IMG/VR virus record: IMGVR_UViG_3300026097_001075
Span: 1 to 25,274 of that record
Direction: 5' to 3' (one strand)
DNA: 25,274 nucleotides
Origin: a virus
Part shown: positions 14,701 to 24,811 of the stretch, piece by piece
Layout: every line of letters begins with the position of its first letter
How positions within the stretch are numbered: position 1 is the stretch's first letter
Translations under genes and position numbers: made by a program
Notes under the pieces: model-generated
Told to the model about the DNA's origin: nothing
Databases searched by the model: none
Seen by the model: the letters and a program-made list of their open reading frames with translations, nothing else

Positions 14701-17533
14701 TTACAATAAAAGTAGCATCTGTGCCGTCTATAGTATCGTTTGTGCCAGGTACACTTGTATAACTAGTATCAGGCACATAACCTGTTCCTGTAAATGTAAT
14801 TGTGTTAATAACACCACTTTGCAATGTATCAATAGCAGTTACAGTTATAATAATATCGTTTTCGGGAGAAGCGCCGCCAAAGACGGTTCCTGGTATTGTA
14901 AGCTGTTGATTTACGTTGTAATTTTCACCAGGAGTTTCGGCTGATACTGAGTACACTCCGTCTAAAAGTGTAACATTAAAAGTTGCACTAGTTGGTATTA
15001 CATTTGTTCCTGAAAGTGCAGATAGTGAATCTCCGTTTACTGCTATACCAGAACTGCTTACATCAGTAATGGATCCTAAACCGTCGACATTATCTACTGT
15101 AATAGTTAAATCATTTTCAGGCGAAGTACCACCTAGATCTGTGCCTAACACAGTTATAGTTTCTGTAGGCACAAAGTCAATACCTCCGTCTACAATTGAA
15201 GTTGTATATGTTCCGCCGTTAAGTTCAACGTCAAAAATTGCATTTTGACCGCTACCTGAGGTAGTATACGGAACATTATTAAAGGTTGTAGAATACTGCG
15301 GCGCTTGTCCTGCAAATGAAACAGAAACAATCGAACCGCCTGTGCCGACTGCATCAACACTGATAAACAAATCATTTATTCCGTCTGTACCATTTTGTAT
15401 ATTAATTGCACTGCCAGGTATTACAATTTTATCACCTACAACATATCCAGAAGATTCATCCGGTGATGTAACATCAACAGTAAGATATGTTCCGTCTTCA
15501 TAGGTAACATCAAAAAGAGCATCTACACCGTTGCCATCTGTATAATTTGCAGTTACTCCTGTTAAAGATACATCTCCGTCTGTATGTGTACCTTCAAGCA
15601 CCGATGCAGTGCCTATGCTGTTGTCGCTTCCTACACTGTTAACAATAATAGTTAAATCATTTTCGGGCGTAGTTCCTCCGAGATCTGTGCCTGAAATTAC
15701 AATTCTATCTCCAACTTCGTATCCAAGACCGTCATTTGCAATATCATCAATGATATATGATCTCAAACTATCTTGAGAATAACTTATATTAAATAATGCA
15801 CCAGAACCTTCAAAGAAATCGTTTACACCGCTGACATTAATGTAGGTTTTCTTATTTGCTGTAAGAGGTTGCGTAAAATTTCTATCAAATTCTATGTCGT
15901 TACCGTTGATGCTTGATATAAATGCTGCAAAACCGTCGCCTCTATCAACAGCTAGATTTTCTACTATACCTACAGATGATTCTACAGTTATAATATTAGT
16001 ATTTGATGCAGTGTCTTCAACTAGTGCAGGTGTTATATATGTGCCGCCGCCTTGACTTTGACTAATAACACCGGTGACCTGAGTTCCTGTTGGAACATTA
16101 ACTCCTGTCAAAGGAGCACCAATTTCTGGAGCAGTGCCGTCATAAGGCAAAAGATCATTACCGGATAATACTGCTAGCTGTGTTTCGAGATTTCCGTCCG
16201 AACCTTGACTCAGAACAGTTATATCTGGATTTCCAATGTTTGCACCTGTATAAAATCCTGCTTGTCGTAGCTGAGTAAATGTCGTACTAAGAACATCACC
16301 GTTTGTGTTACCAACTTTAGATTTTGCAAAATATGTAAATGTAGTCGGAGAAGGTACTTCAACTATTACAAAGCTGCCTTCTGCTCTTGCGGCGCCGACT
16401 ACTGAATCCTCAAGTGCTTTGATTGTAACTGGAGTACCTGCAGAAAATCCGTGCGGTGCTACTGTTGTAACTGTGACAAGTGACTGACCCACGCCTGCTG
16501 TACCTGCCGAAGCATCAGTTACAACTGTTGAAACCGGAGTATCAGTGCCTGGCAATTCAAATACCGAAGGGTAACCTCTCAGAGTACCAATCGCTGCCCA
16601 TTTAGTTGGCTGAAGTCCATATTCAAAGTCAGCGTCTAACATACTTAGCGGTTGAGCAACACGCATACGTTCAATAGCATCTGTTCCAAAATCATAAGGA
16701 CGAGTAGTAACTACACTTTTACCATTTTCTACTTGTTCTATAAAAATTTGTAATTCGTCAGTAGGTAGATGCGAACTGGTATCATACTTAAGAGTAATTA
16801 TAGTTATAGCATCAGTTGTTTGCAAAAACTTTGTAAAGTCAGAGTCTTCTGTTACGCTGTCAGTCTTAAATTCAACAGTTCCGCCTGTTGTAGGGTTAGA
16901 AAAATTATAAACAATTTCATTCTTTGTAGTATTTGTAATTAATAAAATATCTTCAAGATCGTAGCGTCCTTGAATTTTAATTTTGCCTACGCCCGATACT
17001 TCCAGTGCAGGTAAACTTCCTAATCCATTTTCTATCACATCTGCTGTATTTTGTATAAGTGTATTGATTTTTGTTATTGCATCAGCTTCAGCAGTTTTTT
17101 CAGTGTCAATGGTTTGATTTACTTCTGTATTGCTTGCTGTATAAGCTATATTTGTTAATACAAAATTTGTAATTAGTGTAGCAATAAATTCATAAGTCTG
17201 TATTTCTGGTTGTCTATCACCATCTATTTGTGCAACATCTTGGTCCCAATAGTACTTGATAGAGTTACGAGTATTTTCATTGCCGCCATATCTTAGATCT
17301 TTTAAATATGCATCTATGTTAAATCCTATATCTCTTTCACATTTAGAATTATTATAAGTATATCCTGCGAATCCTGTTGTACCGGAATCAATCTGATCCT
17401 GTATCCACTGTGTAGCTTCTTTTTTTACAAATTCTATATTGCTTTCGAGCAAACCATATGCATCGGGAAATAGATTATCATTTAGTCCTATACCGGGTTT
17501 AAATACATAATTTTTTATCTGTGTCTTTGCCAT
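11708..17533 (-). CDS. Giant virion structural protein (1941 residues), probable tail-fibre or baseplate component
   Basis: The N-terminus (MAKTQIKNYVFKPGIGLNDN, then KCERDIGFNIDAYLKDLRYGG) and long beta-rich body resemble large structural proteins of T4-like marine phages. The order is an N-terminal conserved region (about 1-230), a middle section with five tandem repeats of about 90 residues (about 565-1005), a conserved block around HRPFDGGVQLGTGGPQHGAQ and KKYIRYQSGKGIMYTTGAL, further beta domains, and a C-terminal domain ending NIILRWGEAQA. No signal peptide, membrane segment or enzyme motif is seen. It is probably a fibre or baseplate-associated protein that contacts the host, but no T4 gene name fits. 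The start has only a weak ribosome-binding site and lies 3 bases from the preceding stop, so it may be translated by coupling. Transcription probably comes from the late promoter at 18430. Confidence 0.8.
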   Translation of the reverse strand: MAKTQIKNYVFKPGIGLNDNLFPDAYGLLESNIEFVKKEATQWIQDQIDSGTTGFAGYTYNNSKCERDIGFNIDAYLKDLRYGGNENTRNSIKYYWDQDVAQIDGDRQPEIQTYEFIATLITNFVLTNIAYTASNTEVNQTIDTEKTAEADAITKINTLIQNTADVIENGLGSLPALEVSGVGKIKIQGRYDLEDILLITNTTKNEIVYNFSNPTTGGTVEFKTDSVTEDSDFTKFLQTTDAITIITLKYDTSSHLPTDELQIFIEQVENGKSVVTTRPYDFGTDAIERMRVAQPLSMLDADFEYGLQPTKWAAIGTLRGYPSVFELPGTDTPVSTVVTDASAGTAGVGQSLVTVTTVAPHGFSAGTPVTIKALEDSVVGAARAEGSFVIVEVPSPTTFTYFAKSKVGNTNGDVLSTTFTQLRQAGFYTGANIGNPDITVLSQGSDGNLETQLAVLSGNDLLPYDGTAPEIGAPLTGVNVPTGTQVTGVISQSQGGGTYITPALVEDTASNTNIITVESSVGIVENLAVDRGDGFAAFISSINGNDIEFDRNFTQPLTANKKTYINVSGVNDFFEGSGALFNISYSQDSLRSYIIDDIANDGLGYEVGDRIVISGTDLGGTTPENDLTIIVNSVGSDNSIGTASVLEGTHTDGDVSLTGVTANYTDGNGVDALFDVTYEDGTYLTVDVTSPDESSGYVVGDKIVIPGSAINIQNGTDGINDLFISVDAVGTGGSIVSVSFAGQAPQYSTTFNNVPYTTSGSGQNAIFDVELNGGTYTTSIVDGGIDFVPTETITVLGTDLGGTSPENDLTITVDNVDGLGSITDVSSSGIAVNGDSLSALSGTNVIPTSATFNVTLLDGVYSVSAETPGENYNVNQQLTIPGTVFGGASPENDIIITVTAIDTLQSGVINTITFTGTGYVPDTSYTSVPGTNDTIDGTDATFIVNRDFTEYTVLLGDNSGSGYQVGDRIIISGVILDGITPLNDITIRVTNVVSGSINSFVVDYIEANSGSNLDLISTVQLSEITTDDISAGEVYSFASLATLEITFDTAHGLVPGGTFIVTVDSDNGTNNHDLVAGSFFATDVPTVNTLRYQARATGAIDTTTDSIRSIVYPRPDSFFIHRPFDGGVQLGTGGPQHGAQAIRQSKKYIRYQSGKGIMYTTGALFAPSYDLRSVTADGVEVNSLITIETDDNDHGVQEGGVVRLLGIETPGYNSGPKTAIPPEFDYEVVNVIDERTFQVRSKRRLGATTATLGFSAQMSVVSWHGATVRSGIFDDQNGIFWEFDGTQISVVQRTGTQQLAGTIALTVDNNLVTGTNTRFRDQLKAGDRIIIKGMTHVVSHVNSQSEITVTPDWRGVVNITGAKANLIVDKKVKQSNFNLDRLDGTGPSGYDIDIAKMQMIGIQYSWYGAGFIDFMLRGADGNFVYAHRMRNSNVNTEAFMRSGNLPVRYEVTNEGPPGKLKSTIDATQTSMTLEDTSFFPTSGTVYVDNEIIQFTGKDDATNTLTGLVRSATFNNFQAGATRNYTASAAEPHDARTGVILISQTITPLISHWGSAFITDGLFDEDRGYIFSYAETGIDITTTKQTAFLIRLSPSVSNALVGDLGERELLNRAQLLLQGLEITSDGTDGTDDILGGIVVEGILNPQNYPLNPNDIGWSGLSGVAQGGQPSFAQVAAGGSVVWSTDEAPIVETITAQSTITTTIDSGQFSSNGNDFVYVSATDYRNTFGSDDLAPVIGKVITGNRINNNTTITGGFIDSSSNFGYFFLSRRTQNGNISSNTVDAFTITSGSDLSDRNFGLFTKASVESAGATVGTSVTGGSVTFPANTLINDINLKSFAGTEYYEIQFNNSYVGTLVAGTGTVELTFIQPPYALPGETIFSFIATPGERSTLDLSELKELTNTPLGGRGTFPNGPDVLAINVYKVSGAGAPSNIILRWGEAQA
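14520..15840 (-). repeat. Five tandem ~90-residue repeats within the giant protein
   Basis: Five copies of a unit with the core YxVGDxIxIxGxxxGG, then PxNDxxIxVxxV and a GSI-type turn. Cores lie near residues 614, 704, 796, 881 and 971. Clear examples are GTDLGGTTPENDLTIIV, GTDLGGTSPENDLTITV, GTVFGGASPENDIIITV and GVILDGITPLNDITIRV; the second copy is more divergent (INIQNGTDGINDLFISV). Boundaries are approximate. The pattern suggests a chain of identical small beta domains. A single related copy occurs in the protein encoded at 21710-22609. Confidence 0.8.
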
Positions 17534-18870: not shown

Positions 18871-18878
18871 TATTTATT
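18871..18878 (-). promoter_or_regulatory. T4-type late promoter for the 138-residue structural gene
   Basis: The minus strand reads AATAAATA, 18 bases before the ATG and upstream of AGGAACC. It overlaps the last codon of the carbamoyltransferase gene. Confidence 0.6.
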
Positions 18879-20670
18879 AATTTTTAACTGTTATTAATTT
18901 ACCAAATTCAGGCAAGTATAGATATTCAATGTCACTTTGTTGTAATGTCCAGAGTGCATCTTCTAGTGTTTCTACAAGAGGTTCTCCACCTAAATTAAAA
19001 CTGGTATTAAAAACAATAGGAACACCGGTACGATCTTTAAATGTTTTGATCAGATCATAATAATGTGGATTTTGTTCTTTATTTACAGTCTGTATACGAC
19101 AAGTTCCATCTACATGAATAATACTTGGAATTTTTTCCTCTACTCCAGGTTGACAATTTACAGCATACATCATTGTAGGCGAGCTGTCCATGCCTCTTAA
19201 ATCAAACCATTCATGGACATCTTCTTCTAGGATCGATCCTGCAAATGGACGAAAATATTCTCTACGCTTAATTTCGTTAACAAAATCTTTGCCATCTTTG
19301 AAAGTAGGATCAAAAATCAAGCTTCTGTTGCCTAATGCTCTTGGGCCATTTTCTGAACGTCCTTGAAATAACGAAACAATATTTTTTGATGTAATTAAAT
19401 CAATAACAGTTTCATTTGTAGCGTCTTCAACAATTGCGTTGTATTTGTTGCTTAATTCTGTTATATTTTCTTCTGTATAATCGTATTTAGGTCCTAGATA
19501 AACAGCGTCTTGCTGGGTTCTAACTGAAGTATCTCCTGTTTTATGATAATGCCAAACTAAGGCACAACCTATAGCAGTTCCAGCATCGTTAGATACAGGT
19601 TCAACATATAAATTAATATCTAAATCGTCTAATTCTTTAAGATAAAAATAATTAGCTACACAGTTTAGCCCGTATCCACCGCTGACTACAACATTTTTAA
19701 TCCCTGTTTTTTCAACTGCATATCTAATATAATCTGCTGCTGCTTGTTGAGTTTCTTTTTGTACAGCATATGCTAGATCTCTACGATTTTCTAATGTTGT
19801 TAAATCTTCTGCAGTATTGTCATTTAAAAATTTATAAAAAGCACTATTTATAACTGCACCATTTGGATACCTAGGAAGAATAATATTTCTATTAGTTAAA
19901 GGATTGGGCAGGTCTGTCTCGTCCATTAACGAAGGAAAACTATTATTTTCTTTACCGTACGGACTTAGGCCCATGGTTTTTCCTGCTTCGATACTGACCC
20001 AACCACAATATTCAGTTACTGCTTCGTATGCTTTTACAATACCTGCTCTATCGCTAAAACTTACTTCAAAGGAGCCTGCTGGTTCCCAAGATTCTGCTAT
20101 ATGTTCTTGTTGATGAATTCCAACAAACATATCTCGTGTTCCTAGTGTTTTGTGTTTTGTAATAATCTGATCAGGATAATTACAAGTAAATATACTTTCA
20201 GTTTCCCACATAGTTAATTGTTCTTGACCGAATGGAGTTTCTATACCTATAGGAAAAAATGTTCCTGCGCCGTCTATAATTACAGAAACTGCTTTTTCAA
20301 AACCACTGCGATAAAATGCAGCAGCGGCATGCATTTTGTGATGATATAAACTCATATCAATTACTTGATTTGTTGAATGAGGTTCAATTAATCCCATTTT
20401 GCGTGCTAAACCACTATATACATCTTCTCCGCTATAGTCTAATTTTCCAGCAGTTCCGTCTAAAGAAGTAGTATGGGCAACTACAAGATAATCTAATTTA
20501 TCAGTATATTCTTGAATTTTAAGCATACATGCTAGAGGTCCGCCGTCATATTTCTGTCTTGTTAATCTTTCTTCTTCTATAGCAAAAACAATTTCGCCAT
20601 CTTTCATTAAACAAATTGCAGCATTATGTCCTCTAGCAATTCCTGCTATCCATATAGATTTATCGCTCAT
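18877..20670 (-). CDS. O-carbamoyltransferase (NodU/CmcH/TobZ family)
   Basis: A 597-residue, two-domain enzyme, close to the family norm. The N-terminal Kae1/HSP70-like domain starts IAGIARGHNAAICLM and holds IEEERLTRQKYDG, the metal-binding histidine cluster YHHKMHAAAAFY (around residues 109-117), VIIDGAGTF, and VVSGGYGLNCVANY. The C-terminal YrdC-like domain has QGRSENGPRALGNRSLIFDP (from about residue 434), REYFRPFAGSILEED and VPIVFNTSFNLGGEPLVET. Members transfer a carbamoyl group from carbamoyl phosphate, via a carbamoyl-adenylate, to a hydroxyl of a sugar or similar acceptor. AGGA lies before the ATG. It follows the GT9 gene after 19 bases with no promoter between, so the two probably act on the same sugar product. 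The acceptor is not known. Confidence 0.9.
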   Translation of the reverse strand: MSDKSIWIAGIARGHNAAICLMKDGEIVFAIEEERLTRQKYDGGPLACMLKIQEYTDKLDYLVVAHTTSLDGTAGKLDYSGEDVYSGLARKMGLIEPHSTNQVIDMSLYHHKMHAAAAFYRSGFEKAVSVIIDGAGTFFPIGIETPFGQEQLTMWETESIFTCNYPDQIITKHKTLGTRDMFVGIHQQEHIAESWEPAGSFEVSFSDRAGIVKAYEAVTEYCGWVSIEAGKTMGLSPYGKENNSFPSLMDETDLPNPLTNRNIILPRYPNGAVINSAFYKFLNDNTAEDLTTLENRRDLAYAVQKETQQAAADYIRYAVEKTGIKNVVVSGGYGLNCVANYFYLKELDDLDINLYVEPVSNDAGTAIGCALVWHYHKTGDTSVRTQQDAVYLGPKYDYTEENITELSNKYNAIVEDATNETVIDLITSKNIVSLFQGRSENGPRALGNRSLIFDPTFKDGKDFVNEIKRREYFRPFAGSILEEDVHEWFDLRGMDSSPTMMYAVNCQPGVEEKIPSIIHVDGTCRIQTVNKEQNPHYYDLIKTFKDRTGVPIVFNTSFNLGGEPLVETLEDALWTLQQSDIEYLYLPEFGKLITVKN

Positions 20671-20689: not shown

Positions 20690-21637
20690 TTATTTCTTAG
20701 ATATAAATTTAAATGTTTTTTCTACTTGTTCGATGATAGCATCTTCTACTGCACTGTTCATTTGCATTATACCTTCATTTACTCTGTCAGTAAACTCGTC
20801 AATAGTGATTCTAATAGGACTATAACGTTTTACACCATCGCCCATATCTAAAACTTTAAATATTTCTGTATCTGGGTAAGAAACATTTTCTCTAAAGGTA
20901 CTTCCTAAAACAACTGTAGCAGGTATATCAAAGGCATATGCAATATGTTGACCTACACTATCGCAGCCTAAAAAATGATCACTTTTAGATATAATTGCTG
21001 CCCAAGTTCTCAAATCAATACCTTGAGGTATTGCAACAGGTTCAGATACACCATGTTTGTTAAATTCTATACCAATTTCACTCATAAAAATTATAGCGTA
21101 TTTCTTGCTTAATTTTTTTACAATATTAATAACGTGTTCTGGTTCAAAACTTCTTCCACTAAAGTCAGTTACCATACCGTTTTCATTTATAACGCCTCTG
21201 CCAAAAGGCTGAAACACAATCACTTTATCTTTTTTTGTTTTTTCTTTAACTTCGTTTATAGTTTTTTTTGCAATTATATATTCTTGTTTGCTGCATCTAA
21301 TTGTCGGCTTTTGAAGATCTCTTATGCCTTTATTGTTTATTGCAATATCATATGCTTGAGATAAACTGCATTTTTGATTGTAATATTCCCAAACTCTATA
21401 AGGTTCAGGACTTGACAGATTCATGTCTTTTAATTTATCTTCGAAAAGATTCTTATGCCATACATCATATGCTTTTTCGTGCAATATAGAATGGCTTTTA
21501 AAAAAATCTGTTCCACCTTCACAAACTATTATAAAATTGTCTTCTGGATTTTCTTCGTGAAATTTTTCTAATGCAGGTATACTACAAATAACTCGGCCGG
21601 CTCCGCCGTTGATAAAAAATGCTGTGTTTCTTGACAT
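20690..21637 (-). CDS. GT9-family glycosyltransferase, heptosyltransferase-like
   Basis: A 315-residue protein with the two-domain GT-B pattern of family 9, which includes ADP-heptose:LPS heptosyltransferases. The N-terminal loop NGGAGRVICSIPALEKF corresponds to the GDxxxxxPAL element of WaaC. The linker region has VIVFQPFGRG. The donor-site region (about residues 205-245) reads LRTWAAIISKSDHFLGCDSV then GQHIAYAFDIPATVVLGST, parallel to the WaaC VDTGLSHLTAALDRP...YGPT segment, with C-D-S-V in place of D-T-G-L. Donor specificity is not proven, but a heptose donor fits the HldE/HldD genes in the same window. It is the first gene after a perfect TATAAATA late promoter, and its AGGA ribosome-binding site lies in an inverted repeat. 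The acceptor could be a virion protein, a glycan or host LPS. Confidence 0.72.
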   Translation of the reverse strand: MSRNTAFFINGGAGRVICSIPALEKFHEENPEDNFIIVCEGGTDFFKSHSILHEKAYDVWHKNLFEDKLKDMNLSSPEPYRVWEYYNQKCSLSQAYDIAINNKGIRDLQKPTIRCSKQEYIIAKKTINEVKEKTKKDKVIVFQPFGRGVINENGMVTDFSGRSFEPEHVINIVKKLSKKYAIIFMSEIGIEFNKHGVSEPVAIPQGIDLRTWAAIISKSDHFLGCDSVGQHIAYAFDIPATVVLGSTFRENVSYPDTEIFKVLDMGDGVKRYSPIRITIDEFTDRVNEGIMQMNSAVEDAIIEQVEKTFKFISKK

Positions 21638-21691
21638 AAAAATATCCTACTTAATATATGCTTTAATGATATTTATAGGTAGGATATTCTT
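21638..21691 (-). promoter_or_regulatory. Inverted repeat that would hide the GT9 ribosome-binding site
   Basis: AATATCCTAC (21641-21650) and GTAGGATATT (21679-21688) are a perfect 10-bp inverted repeat, extendable to 13 pairs with one G-U. In minus-strand RNA the downstream arm contains the GT9 AGGA site, 7 bases from ATG. The late promoter lies in the 28-base loop, so only read-through RNA carries both arms. RNA started at the late promoter lacks the upstream arm and leaves the site open. T4 lysozyme gene e is a known example of this logic. Confidence 0.65.
21670..21677 (-). promoter_or_regulatory. Perfect T4-type late promoter for GT9-carbamoyltransferase
   Basis: The minus strand reads TATAAATA, an exact match to the T4 late consensus and the only perfect one found in the window. 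It is 32 bases before the GT9 ATG, between the arms of the inverted repeat. Confidence 0.78.
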
Positions 21692-21709: not shown

Positions 21710-22609
21710 TTAACCCAAAGGTGGTTCTTGCATAGAAACTTTCCAAGCTGGCACTAGTTGTTTTTTTGATAAAGAAATAATTGCACCTGTTCCGGATCCA
21801 TTTGTAGTGTAGAATACGTCAGAATAATTGCCTGCTTCGGTATGATAAAACGCTTTTGCATGTGTTATTTTATTTACTGCTGTAATTCCTCCAGAGTCAT
21901 CTACAGAAGTAACTTCAACTAGTATTTCATTTACTGGTTGATTGTTTTTATATCTAGGATCGTTTATACTGATTTTATCGCCTATACTATAATTAGTTCC
22001 GCCATTTTCTATTTTTACAGTCCAACTTACTCCATAAATTTCAGGAAAATCTCTTAGATATTGTCTATAATTTTTTACTTTAATTGCTAGAGACTCCGGC
22101 AAATCTTCTGAAGAAATAACATCACTAGCATTTATTGCAGAGCTACGAAGATCGAAAAGAATATCCCAAGTCATTTCTGGTTTTTTCCAAGGAAACGGTT
22201 TGACAAAACTTTTTCTAGAAGGATCGTATTCAATCTCAGTAAGCTCATAAGTTTCAATGGGCTTCGAAGGTTCGTTGTATGTATAAGGATAACCATTGTA
22301 CTCAATTTCCTCAGTAAGCTCTTCAATTCGACCATCTTCAAATTCGTGTTTTTGCCATATTGAACAAACTAATGTGTCTTTATTACAATCTACTTCTATA
22401 GCGTAATCGTTATCTGCATTTTCGTTGTATGTTTTATATATTTCAGAGGTAATATCTCTACCTGTCAATTTATTTGTATCAGCATCTATAATTAAATAAA
22501 TCTTTTCAGGACCATTGTATGTTAAAGTTGTAGTTCTATTTTGTTCTCCTGAATTAACAAACATTTCGTCTGCTAATTTATATGTAAAATCTTTACTTAT
22601 ATTTTTCAT
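21710..22609 (-). CDS. Fibre-assembly-chaperone-like protein with an inserted repeat domain
   Basis: A 299-residue paralogue of the protein at 24155-24811. Shared features are a beta-rich start with TYNGPEKIYLIIDADTNKLT (paralogue: KYTGPDRIWVFVDEKTGAFS), a middle with YELTEIEYDPSRKSFV and a WDILFDLRSSAINASD helix, then YRQYLRDFPE, and the end AWKVSMQEPPLG. The LRD-P and final P-P pattern resembles tail-fibre assembly chaperones. Between YRQYLRDFPE and AWKVSMQEPP, where the paralogue has about 10 residues, there is an extra domain of about 90 residues matching the giant protein's tandem repeat. The start is set at ATG 22609, 7 bases after AGGA; an upstream GTG at 22615 is too close to that site. 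It lies directly after an adhesin-like gene. The chaperone role is inferred; a structural role is possible. Confidence 0.6.
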   Translation of the reverse strand: MKNISKDFTYKLADEMFVNSGEQNRTTTLTYNGPEKIYLIIDADTNKLTGRDITSEIYKTYNENADNDYAIEVDCNKDTLVCSIWQKHEFEDGRIEELTEEIEYNGYPYTYNEPSKPIETYELTEIEYDPSRKSFVKPFPWKKPEMTWDILFDLRSSAINASDVISSEDLPESLAIKVKNYRQYLRDFPEIYGVSWTVKIENGGTNYSIGDKISINDPRYKNNQPVNEILVEVTSVDDSGGITAVNKITHAKAFYHTEAGNYSDVFYTTNGSGTGAIISLSKKQLVPAWKVSMQEPPLG

Positions 22610-22625
22610 TATCACTTCCTAGTTA

Positions 22626-23372
22626 TTAAAAATAAACCACATAAACTAATCCGCCGGCACCAGGGCCGCCGCAACAACACCCGCCGCCGAAAGCTTGCGC
22701 AGTGCCTCCGCCGCCGCCGGGCCACATGCCAAATGCGATTGAACCTCCGTGAGCACAACATCCATTTCGTCCGATCGCCGGACCTGGTATAAATGGAGCG
22801 TTTGCTCTTAAATAAAATCCTCCATCGAAGCAGCTCCTGGACGTTCGGCCGCCGCCGGCAGTTCCAGGAATAGAAAAATCTGTATTAACGGATCTACCAC
22901 CACAACAATAACACATTGTACAGCACGTATAACAGTTAGCATAATAATCGCAGTTAGCAGCACTATTCGGAATGCCCCCACATACTTTAGCTTCCCAAGT
23001 TGATTCGCCGCCGCCGCCTAGTGAACAAACAAAGCTGCAATTGCCCTGTGATCCAGCACAACTATTGCTACAAGTAGTAGAACCAGCAGCACATATTCTT
23101 ATAGATTGACCTGGTGCTACTGTACACACTTTAATTCCATAGCCACCACTTCCTGCGCCATTGCCCTGCTGACAGCATCGGCCGCAGCCGCCGCCTCCCC
23201 CGCCACTCCAAATTTCAAATATTGCCGTAGATACTCCTGCTGGAACTGTCCATAAACAGCAGGCACCACCGTTTGAAGCAGTGGTAATATCCGTGTCGTA
23301 AACACTAAATTCACCTGGTATAAGCTCTGAAGGTTCTTCGTATCCGAACAATAAATCTCTAAGATTAGGCAT
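22626..23372 (-). CDS. Cysteine- and glycine-rich adhesin-like protein A
   Basis: A 248-residue protein with an unusual composition: about 25 cysteines and many glycine runs (GGGGGG, GGGGG). The N-terminal 30 residues are ordinary, then a conserved TTASNGGACCLWTVPAGVS opens the rich region, and it closes with GGPGAGGLVYVVYF. Cysteines often come in pairs or triplets (CC, CCC). Proteins of this type recur near fibre genes of T4-like marine phages. The glycine tracts resemble the polyglycine helices known in T-even type distal fibre adhesins, so a receptor-binding role is likely but not shown. No signal peptide or enzyme motif is seen. AAGGA precedes the ATG. It is paralogous to the next gene and follows it by 12 bases. 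Confidence 0.72.
   Translation of the reverse strand: MPNLRDLLFGYEEPSELIPGEFSVYDTDITTASNGGACCLWTVPAGVSTAIFEIWSGGGGGGCGRCCQQGNGAGSGGYGIKVCTVAPGQSIRICAAGSTTCSNSCAGSQGNCSFVCSLGGGGESTWEAKVCGGIPNSAANCDYYANCYTCCTMCYCCGGRSVNTDFSIPGTAGGGRTSRSCFDGGFYLRANAPFIPGPAIGRNGCCAHGGSIAFGMWPGGGGGTAQAFGGGCCCGGPGAGGLVYVVYF
23231..23285 (-). repeat. 55-bp direct repeat, copy 1 (adhesin A)
   Basis: This 55-base stretch matches 24011-24065 at all but four positions, exactly 780 bases away and in the same reading frame. It encodes the TTASNGGACCLWTVPAGVS block. The DNA similarity is much higher here than in the surrounding paralogous sequence, which suggests recent duplication or gene conversion. Confidence 0.85.
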
Positions 23373-23384
23373 GTTTATTCCTTT

Positions 23385-24155
23385 TTAAATATCTTGTACT
23401 ATAGGATAGTAAATGTTTACTAAACCACCTGCTCCGGGCCCACCGCAGAATGGACCTGTGGTATGAGAAACAGCAGACGGGCCGCCACCGCCTGGCCAGC
23501 GTGCGTAACCACCTGAACAACATCCTCCGCAGAATCCAGAACACCCGTCTTTAGAATAACCATTATTAGACATTGTAAATGGTGCCTGATTCATTGTTTG
23601 CCAAGTTTGTGTCGAACAATGCGAACTTCCTTTTGCACCTCCGTAGATTCCTGGAATGCCCATTGTACCGCAAAATGATGTCAAGCTATTCTGTACATGT
23701 TGGCAACCTGAATTACTACAGTTCAATTGAAAGTCACATCTAGTAGTTCCCGCTGTTCCGCCTGCTGCACAAATTTGTACTGCACCTCCATTTATGCTTA
23801 CAAAGCTAGGAAACGACGAACATCCTGTAGTGCTTCGGCTACAACCTGTAGAACCTGCTGCACAAATAGTATATTCTTCACCACCGTCGCCACTTAATCC
23901 TGTAATAAATTTACGAGCGTAGCTTCCGCCGCCGCCGCCCCATCCAGCGCGACAACAACAGGCCTCGCCGCCGCCGCCGCCGCCGCCCCACATTTCAACA
24001 GCAAACCATGATACTCCTGCTGGAACTGTCCATAAACAACAAGCACCACCATTTGAAGCAGTAGTTTTGTTTGAATTAAAAACATACAGCGTATCAAAAT
24101 TTATACTTTTATTTACTTCGCCACCTATCTCTAATAATGTTCTTAGTCCGGCCAT
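23385..24155 (-). CDS. Cysteine- and glycine-rich adhesin-like protein B
   Basis: A 256-residue paralogue of adhesin A. After a 30-residue start it carries KTTASNGGACCLWTVPAGVS, then WGGGGGGGEACCC, a glycine-rich body with about 19 cysteines, two ICAAG segments, and the shared end GGPGAGGLVNIYY followed by a short PIVQDI tail. The seven-glycine run is encoded by seven identical GGC codons, a trinucleotide repeat. Predicted role as for protein A: a distal fibre adhesin with polyglycine structure, perhaps stabilised by disulfides. AGGAG precedes the ATG, and the start overlaps the chaperone-like stop codon (TAATG), so the two proteins are probably made together. Confidence 0.72.
   Translation of the reverse strand: MAGLRTLLEIGGEVNKSINFDTLYVFNSNKTTASNGGACCLWTVPAGVSWFAVEMWGGGGGGGEACCCRAGWGGGGGSYARKFITGLSGDGGEEYTICAAGSTGCSRSTTGCSSFPSFVSINGGAVQICAAGGTAGTTRCDFQLNCSNSGCQHVQNSLTSFCGTMGIPGIYGGAKGSSHCSTQTWQTMNQAPFTMSNNGYSKDGCSGFCGGCCSGGYARWPGGGGPSAVSHTTGPFCGGPGAGGLVNIYYPIVQDI
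23967..23987 (-). repeat. Seven-unit GCC trinucleotide repeat encoding polyglycine
   Basis: Seven perfect GCC units on the plus strand (GGC codons on the coding strand) encode the Gly7 run of adhesin B. In this AT-rich genome it stands out. Changes in copy number would alter the glycine run without shifting the frame. Confidence 0.9.
24011..24065 (-). repeat. 55-bp direct repeat, copy 2 (adhesin B)
   Basis: The partner of 23231-23285, with four differences in 55 bases. It encodes the same TTASNGGACCLWTVPAGVS block at the start of the glycine-rich part of adhesin B. Confidence 0.85.
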
Positions 24156-24811
24156 TAAGCATCTCCTGGTGGTGTTGGAAATCTAACTTTCCATGCATCT
24201 ATTTCGTTTTGGGTACCTTTACCAAATGTTGCAGGTAAATCTCTTAAGGCTTGTCTATATTCAATCCAAGGTTGTTTAACACTATCTGGCTGATCTGGTG
24301 CAATCTTTCCATCACTTGCAGTAAGAGCACCATTTCTTGCATTTATAACATCGTCCCAAGTTATAGACGAAGTTTGGTAATCTGGAACAATCCATTTATT
24401 ATCTTCTAAATTGTAAATTAATTCGCTTAGATTATATGTTTGATCTATTGTAGGTATTTCATTATATTCTACTGTAGAACCGTTTGGTAAATTTTCTGTA
24501 ATAGTAGTTTGATTTAGTGTTTCTACATTACTTCCTAAAATTAATGAAATAATAAAAGGATTATCTTCAGCTACAACTTCTACTTTTTTATGTCCTACCG
24601 GTGTTGGAACATCTGCACCATCTTCTCTTGCTGTAAGTGGCGGAGTTACTCTTGAGAAAGCACCTGTTTTTTCGTCTACAAAAACCCATATTCTATCAGG
24701 ACCTGTATATTTTGCTGTTCCTGTTTTCCTTTCGGAATCATCCAAAGAGTATATAACGTTTGGTACGTTGTATGTAAACTCTATGGTTGTATTTATTACT
24801 TCGCTTGGCAT
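24155..24811 (-). CDS. Fibre-assembly-chaperone-like protein
   Basis: A 218-residue protein in the same family as 21710-22609 but without the inserted repeat domain. It has KYTGPDRIWVFVDEKTGAFS, a middle with YNLSELIYNLEDNKWIVP and TWDDVINARNGALTASDG, and a C-terminal WIEYRQALRDLPATF...AWKVRFPTPPGDA. The YRxALRDxP helix and closing P-P motif resemble phage tail-fibre assembly chaperones. It lies between two adhesin-like genes, overlapping the next ATG by one base, as expected if it helps fold or load an adhesin. GAGG lies before the ATG. A virion-structural role cannot be excluded. Confidence 0.6.
   Translation of the reverse strand: MPSEVINTTIEFTYNVPNVIYSLDDSERKTGTAKYTGPDRIWVFVDEKTGAFSRVTPPLTAREDGADVPTPVGHKKVEVVAEDNPFIISLILGSNVETLNQTTITENLPNGSTVEYNEIPTIDQTYNLSELIYNLEDNKWIVPDYQTSSITWDDVINARNGALTASDGKIAPDQPDSVKQPWIEYRQALRDLPATFGKGTQNEIDAWKVRFPTPPGDA

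Follow-up and report, generated by a model that had tools for sequence, protein, structure and literature searches.

A cis-acting RNA hairpin with a T4-type late promoter motif nested inside it probably masks translation of a GT9-like glycosyltransferase gene in an uncultured T4-like phage. The window, i.e., the whole stretch of DNA analyzed, is a 25,274-bp IMG/VR record of marine or aquatic origin; its 1,116-amino-acid tail sheath resembles those of large phages, e.g., Agrobacterium phage Atu_ph07. The hairpin spans the gap between an adhesin/tail-fiber gene cluster and the GT9 gene, and the pairing preserved among relatives indicates that it is selected. What appears to be new, judging from the sequence, is the use of the device known from the T4 lysozyme gene at a different gene, GT9. 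The features are as follows:

21710-22615, minus strand: last gene of the upstream minus-strand adhesin/tail-fiber cluster, ending with its stop at 21710, 72 nt ahead of the GT9 ATG.
21679-21691, minus strand: 5′ arm AAGAATATCCTAC, present only in RNA arriving from upstream (sequence and folding).
21670-21677, minus strand: T4-type late promoter motif TATAAATA, between the arms (motif match).
21664 (approximate), minus strand: predicted first base of the late RNA, in the loop (from T4 late promoter spacing).
21638-21650, minus strand: 3′ arm GTAGGATATTTTT, which holds AGGA and a run of T and adjoins the ATG (sequence and folding).
21645-21648, minus strand: AGGA, putative Shine–Dalgarno site of the GT9 gene (sequence and predicted opening cost).
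20690-21637, minus strand: GT9-like glycosyltransferase gene, 315 amino acids, phrog_8954 (predicted fold and weak Pfam GT9 matches in homologs).
18877-20670, minus strand: carbamoyltransferase gene, probably cotranscribed, with its own Shine–Dalgarno site outside the hairpin.

On the plus strand, the perfect 10-bp core consists of AATATCCTAC, starting at 21641, and its pairing counterpart, starting at 21679. Read on the minus strand, AAGAATATCCTAC (21691-21679) pairs with GTAGGATATTTTT (21650-21638) across a 28-nt loop, and the gap between the adhesin and GT9 genes runs TAATACCAAATTTAGTTAAAC-AAGAATATCCTAC-CTATAAATATCATTAAAGCATATATTAA-GTAGGATATTTTT-ATG. The stem has 13 pairs, 10 of them in the perfect core, with one G-U pair and only 3 G-C pairs. 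The late motif TATAAATA (21677-21670) sits in the loop, AGGA (21648-21645) falls within the 3′ arm, and that arm directly abuts the GT9 ATG at 21637, the U's of the TTTT before the ATG being largely paired in the stem. The initial annotation had described a perfect 10-bp inverted repeat, extending to 13 pairs, whose arms flank a late promoter and whose downstream arm includes the AGGA of the GT9 gene; its positions proved exact. No Rfam family matched anywhere in the window.

The naming of the 315-amino-acid gene as GT9 also turned out to be right. The window protein reaches no Pfam family at its cut-off, and 27 of its 41 homologs weakly match Pfam GT9 (best 3e-7). Its predicted structure (mean pLDDT 83.7) matches the GT9/heptosyltransferase structures 3tov, 2gt1, and 1psw at E values of about 1e-10, with 3tov as the best Foldseek match (E 8e-11). 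On this structural model, phrog_8954, for which no function is listed, adopts the fold of a GT9 heptosyltransferase. Upstream, the adhesin cluster contains alternating paralogs, with phrog_4205 and phrog_9740 repeated (window 22626-24811 and L072:48-3932), which suggests a duplicated pair of fiber and assembly proteins.

The heptamer ATAAATA occurs 11 times in the window. Five of these copies lie 20-45 nt ahead of gene starts on the sense strand, and about 0.3 of the 11 would be expected within 70 nt of a gene start. This placement, together with NATAAATA, which has been published as the late motif in T4-like cyanophages (PMC2984593), makes ATAAATA credible as a promoter. Late RNA starts were assumed from T4 spacing, six bases after TATAAATA. 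With that start, opening the Shine–Dalgarno site in the window is predicted to cost 12.6 kcal/mol when the RNA reads through from upstream and 1.3 when it begins at the late promoter; for T4 gene e, the corresponding values from this script are 9.2 and 1.3. Relatives with the hairpin and a recognizable promoter give 8.6-14.9 in the long RNA and 0.6-2.2 in the late RNA. Across the group's remaining late genes the median is 1.9 and the maximum 6.5 (computed in a shorter context), and homologs without the hairpin are open in both RNAs (L231, 2.0; L005, 3.9). Folding with and without the upstream arm thus bears out, by prediction, two earlier proposals: that read-through RNA would fold over the GT9 ribosome-binding site and that RNA begun at the late promoter, lacking the 5′ arm, would stay open.

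These predictions fit a simple scheme. Polymerase reading through from the adhesin operon would make RNA with both arms, which would fold to hide AGGA and abut the AUG, leaving GT9 poorly translated. Polymerase starting at TATAAATA, between the arms, would make RNA without the 5′ arm and with an open site. As the site is predicted to be open or closed according to where the RNA starts, the nested promoter would decide whether GT9 is readable. Expression of GT9 would then depend on the gene's own promoter alone and be shielded from the operon upstream. We infer the promoter activity, the start site, the read-through, and the loss of translation in this scheme from sequence.

The fold is locally stable. 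The segment 21634-21692 folds at -13.4 kcal/mol (z -4.48), and no shuffled sequence was equally stable; z-scores range from -3.6 to -4.5 in the local stretch and fall to -1.40 in a 121-nt context. Instability against competing folds had been named as a weakness to look for, and the hairpin is still the minimum-energy fold within 121 nt, with a z-score there of only -1.40.

The arrangement closely resembles a known one. T4 gene e (lysozyme) has a translation-control hairpin, described by McPheeters et al. 1986 as reviewed in PMC3014915, and masking is proven for that gene (PMC3014915). Similar hairpins precede T4 soc, 49, I-TevI/II/III, and segB and Aeh1 mobE; in these late genes, the start is hidden when the RNA comes from promoters farther upstream and accessible when it begins at a late promoter close by (PMC2988022, PMC3014915). 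With the script used here, T4 e, 49, and I-TevII show the same anatomy as GT9. No masking was scored for T4 soc, where the hairpin found overlaps the ATG, whereas AAGGA was the site scored. As in T4 gene e, TATAAATA lies within the hairpin, the late RNA would begin past the 5′ arm, the 3′ arm holds the Shine–Dalgarno site next to the ATG, and predicted opening costs are similar. The arms of T4 e, AATACCTTCTA/TAGGAGGTATT, are even close in sequence to those of the relative L424, AAATACCTCTCTAT/ATAGGGAGGTATTT. There are also differences: The gene here is a GT9 glycosyltransferase, the upstream operon seems to be late, several members have a U run after the stem, and the present case is known from sequence and folding. 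By anatomy and prediction, the GT9 hairpin appears to belong with the T4 gene e type of device.

The repeat by itself means little. The window contains 2 perfect 10-bp inverted repeats with arms 10-45 nt apart, and 1.7 would be expected in random sequence matched for dinucleotide composition, so that placement and comparative evidence weigh most. The second repeat, GTTGTAACTG, lies within a 1941-amino-acid gene (16464-16525) and is probably due to chance. A comparable origin for the GT9 hairpin, as a chance repeat in AT-rich DNA, would agree with that expected number and is nonetheless very improbable given its position, its covariation, and an enrichment specific to the GT9 junction. A looser-pairing statistic, tried first, gave a weak signal and was superseded by a clustered, gene-specific test. 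Stems scoring ≥24 that straddle the promoter occur in 6 of 21 GT9 promoter clusters, whereas exchanging arms among loci gives an expectation of 0.15, and none of 10,000 such permutations had as high a mean. Arm swapping and covariation together therefore speak against a chance repeat, even though the bare repeat is not rare; the compensatory changes refute it unless they arose by chance themselves. At the other late promoters of the group, none of 42 has a stem scoring ≥24; given this lack of excess, the stem is not something that the group's late promoters share as a rule.

Six scans of viral contigs yielded 457 usable GT9-gene starts, 113 of them with distinct upstream DNA, and stems scoring ≥24 cover the Shine–Dalgarno site in 11 of these 113, all such counts of relatives being inflated by kinship. 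The hairpins are distributed over four distinct regions of the GT9 tree, where well-supported branches force at least two changes of state. The hairpin is frequently missing from homologs whose proteins are 63-76% identical, and many homologs lack a terminator as well; the hairpin is thus inessential to the GT9 gene. Where present, its arms are spaced 5 to 32 nt apart and differ in sequence by group: TATATCCTATAA/TTATAGGATATA in L242, ATTAATTATGGTCC/GGATCATAATTAAT in L226, ATTAGATAAGGTCC/GGACTTTATTTAAT in L227, ATACCTCTCTATAA/TTATAGAGAGGTAT in L429, AAGATCCTCTCTA/TAGAGAGGATTTT in L248, AAATGCCTTGACTAATTG/CAATTAGTTGAGGCGTTT in L305, and AAATACCTCTCTAT/ATAGGGAGGTATTT in L424.

Compensatory changes in related phages had been suggested as a check, and the arms do covary. 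Between the window and L242, whose proteins are 78% identical, 11 shared pairs include two double compensatory changes, and L242 lacks one further outer pair relative to the window. Of the 14 pairs compared between L226 and L227, two show double changes and three show one-sided changes, and none is broken. L248 differs from L424 by two double and two one-sided changes, again with no pair broken, and from L429 by two double compensatory changes. G-U swaps are also seen between the hairpins of relatives. These substitutions bear on whether the repeat acts as DNA, i.e., as an operator on which a dimeric repressor would bind both arms around the promoter that they flank. Arm sequences vary between close relatives while pairing holds and G-U pairs are used, which speaks against a protein operator; one arm, moreover, always lies over the Shine–Dalgarno site, and the spacing is variable. 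Such an operator is highly implausible.

Other arrangements were observed among the relatives. Before GT9 in L305, L306, and L365, long covering hairpins (up to 18 pairs, with a U run) have a loop without a clear NATAAATA. In L262, L254, L423, and L071, weaker arms of 7-9 bp (CCTTTA/TAAAGG) surround a TTTAAATA motif before GT9, and the loop contains a further small hairpin; this could be a more relaxed version of the device. In a pattern scan, the promoter-straddling sequence CCTCTCTATAAATAGTAATTATTAGAGAGG turned up directly before a 240-amino-acid gene of unknown family, unrelated to GT9, at L469:1705-1734 and L471:2173-2202, and this hairpin with its late motif extends the device beyond GT9 genes.

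The U run found in some members, which the initial annotation passed over, raises the question of termination. The hairpin and U run could form a composite terminator that ends adhesin transcripts, with masking either a by-product or a second activity; polymerase starting at the late promoter in the loop would escape the stop. A U run directly follows the stem in the window (TTTT), in the CCTCTC group (T5-T6), and in the L305 group, and in records with a U run the hairpin is the sole terminator-like element of the gap. Close relatives without the hairpin (L005, L231, L233, and L235) have a separate U-tailed terminator. By the criteria applied here, such a terminator precedes the promoter in 0 of 10 relatives with the hairpin versus 29 of 81 without it (Fisher P 0.027, kinship ignored), as expected if the hairpin handles read-through. 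Termination would also explain how carbamoyltransferase is kept off read-through RNA. The stem nevertheless persists without any U run in L226, L227, and L242, which fits masking and not termination, and in the window a 28-nt loop, a stem with 3 G-C pairs, and mostly paired U's make a poor intrinsic terminator.

A likeness to intrinsic (Rho-independent) terminators, in which a stem and then a U run close an operon, is seen in the window and the CCTCTC group, the latter with loops of 5-16 nt. The differences are the long loop and few G-C pairs of the window, the lack of a U run in L226, L227, and L242, and the promoter inside the hairpin. A search of the literature for cases of a promoter inside a terminator loop returned nothing relevant. 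L242 combines the masking hairpin with a separate stem that has a poor U tail. In L226 and L227 the masking stem stands alone, without a U run or a terminator, an indication that it is masking as such that is retained. A composite terminator is an unlikely account of the hairpin, though partial termination is a serious rival, and in the window and the CCTCTC group termination may add to masking.

The reviews describe the device for lysozyme, Soc, endonuclease VII, and homing endonucleases, and their rationale is that late proteins are kept out of early RNA (PMC3014915, PMC2988022). A timing switch of this kind at GT9, with early or middle read-through silent and the protein made only late, would be in keeping with an anatomy identical to that of T4 e and with the T4 genes that carry such hairpins, which are late genes on early or middle transcripts (PMC2988022). 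The surroundings of GT9 differ in this respect. In nine related records with the hairpin, a late-type promoter, NATAAATAC, lies 20-40 nt before the first gene of the adhesin operon, ~4-4.4 kb upstream of GT9. The nine are the L242 contig (read as L487), L228, L227, and six CCTCTC-group contigs (L066/L475, L072 or L473, L465, L470, L476, and L478); the window contig ends before the start of the operon, so this evidence comes from relatives. The upstream operon is probably also late, and the read-through RNA with it. That promoter, together with upstream genes that look like tail or adhesin genes, gives no indication of early RNA across the junction, though a late promoter is compatible with early RNA too.

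A timing switch is accordingly quite unlikely, and the proposal that GT9 is strictly late is not supported, given that the adhesin operon itself opens with NATAAATAC in those records. T4 soc, 49, the I-Tev genes, segB, and Aeh1 mobE lie on early or middle transcripts, whereas the upstream neighbor of GT9 appears to be another late unit, and the early-RNA context of the T4 cases may not apply. Of the gene e logic as originally proposed, the anatomy, the predicted closed and open site, and the covariation stand; the early-versus-late role is not supported. The extension of strict lateness to carbamoyltransferase fares no better. That gene has a ribosome-binding site of its own, 20 nt beyond the end of GT9, which the hairpin does not include, so masking alone would leave it unsilenced; keeping that gene off read-through RNA would need termination, or Rho acting on untranslated RNA.

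With the upstream operon seemingly under its own late promoter, it is more likely that the masking hairpin uncouples two late units than that it separates early from late. One elaboration, possible though on balance doubtful, is a one-way gate between two late operons, in which the hairpin would cover the ribosome-binding site that follows and also stop transcription arriving from upstream. The downstream late promoter would lie inside the hairpin, so its own transcripts would form none. If such a gate is real, marine T4-like phages would have turned the device of gene e into a boundary between operons that is interchangeable with an ordinary terminator.

A late motif straddled by two arms, one of them on a Shine–Dalgarno site, provides a simple rule for finding such genes in uncultured phages. 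Covarying copies of the hairpin before a surface-sugar enzyme, behind a seemingly late operon, would mean that the device also sets boundaries within late expression.
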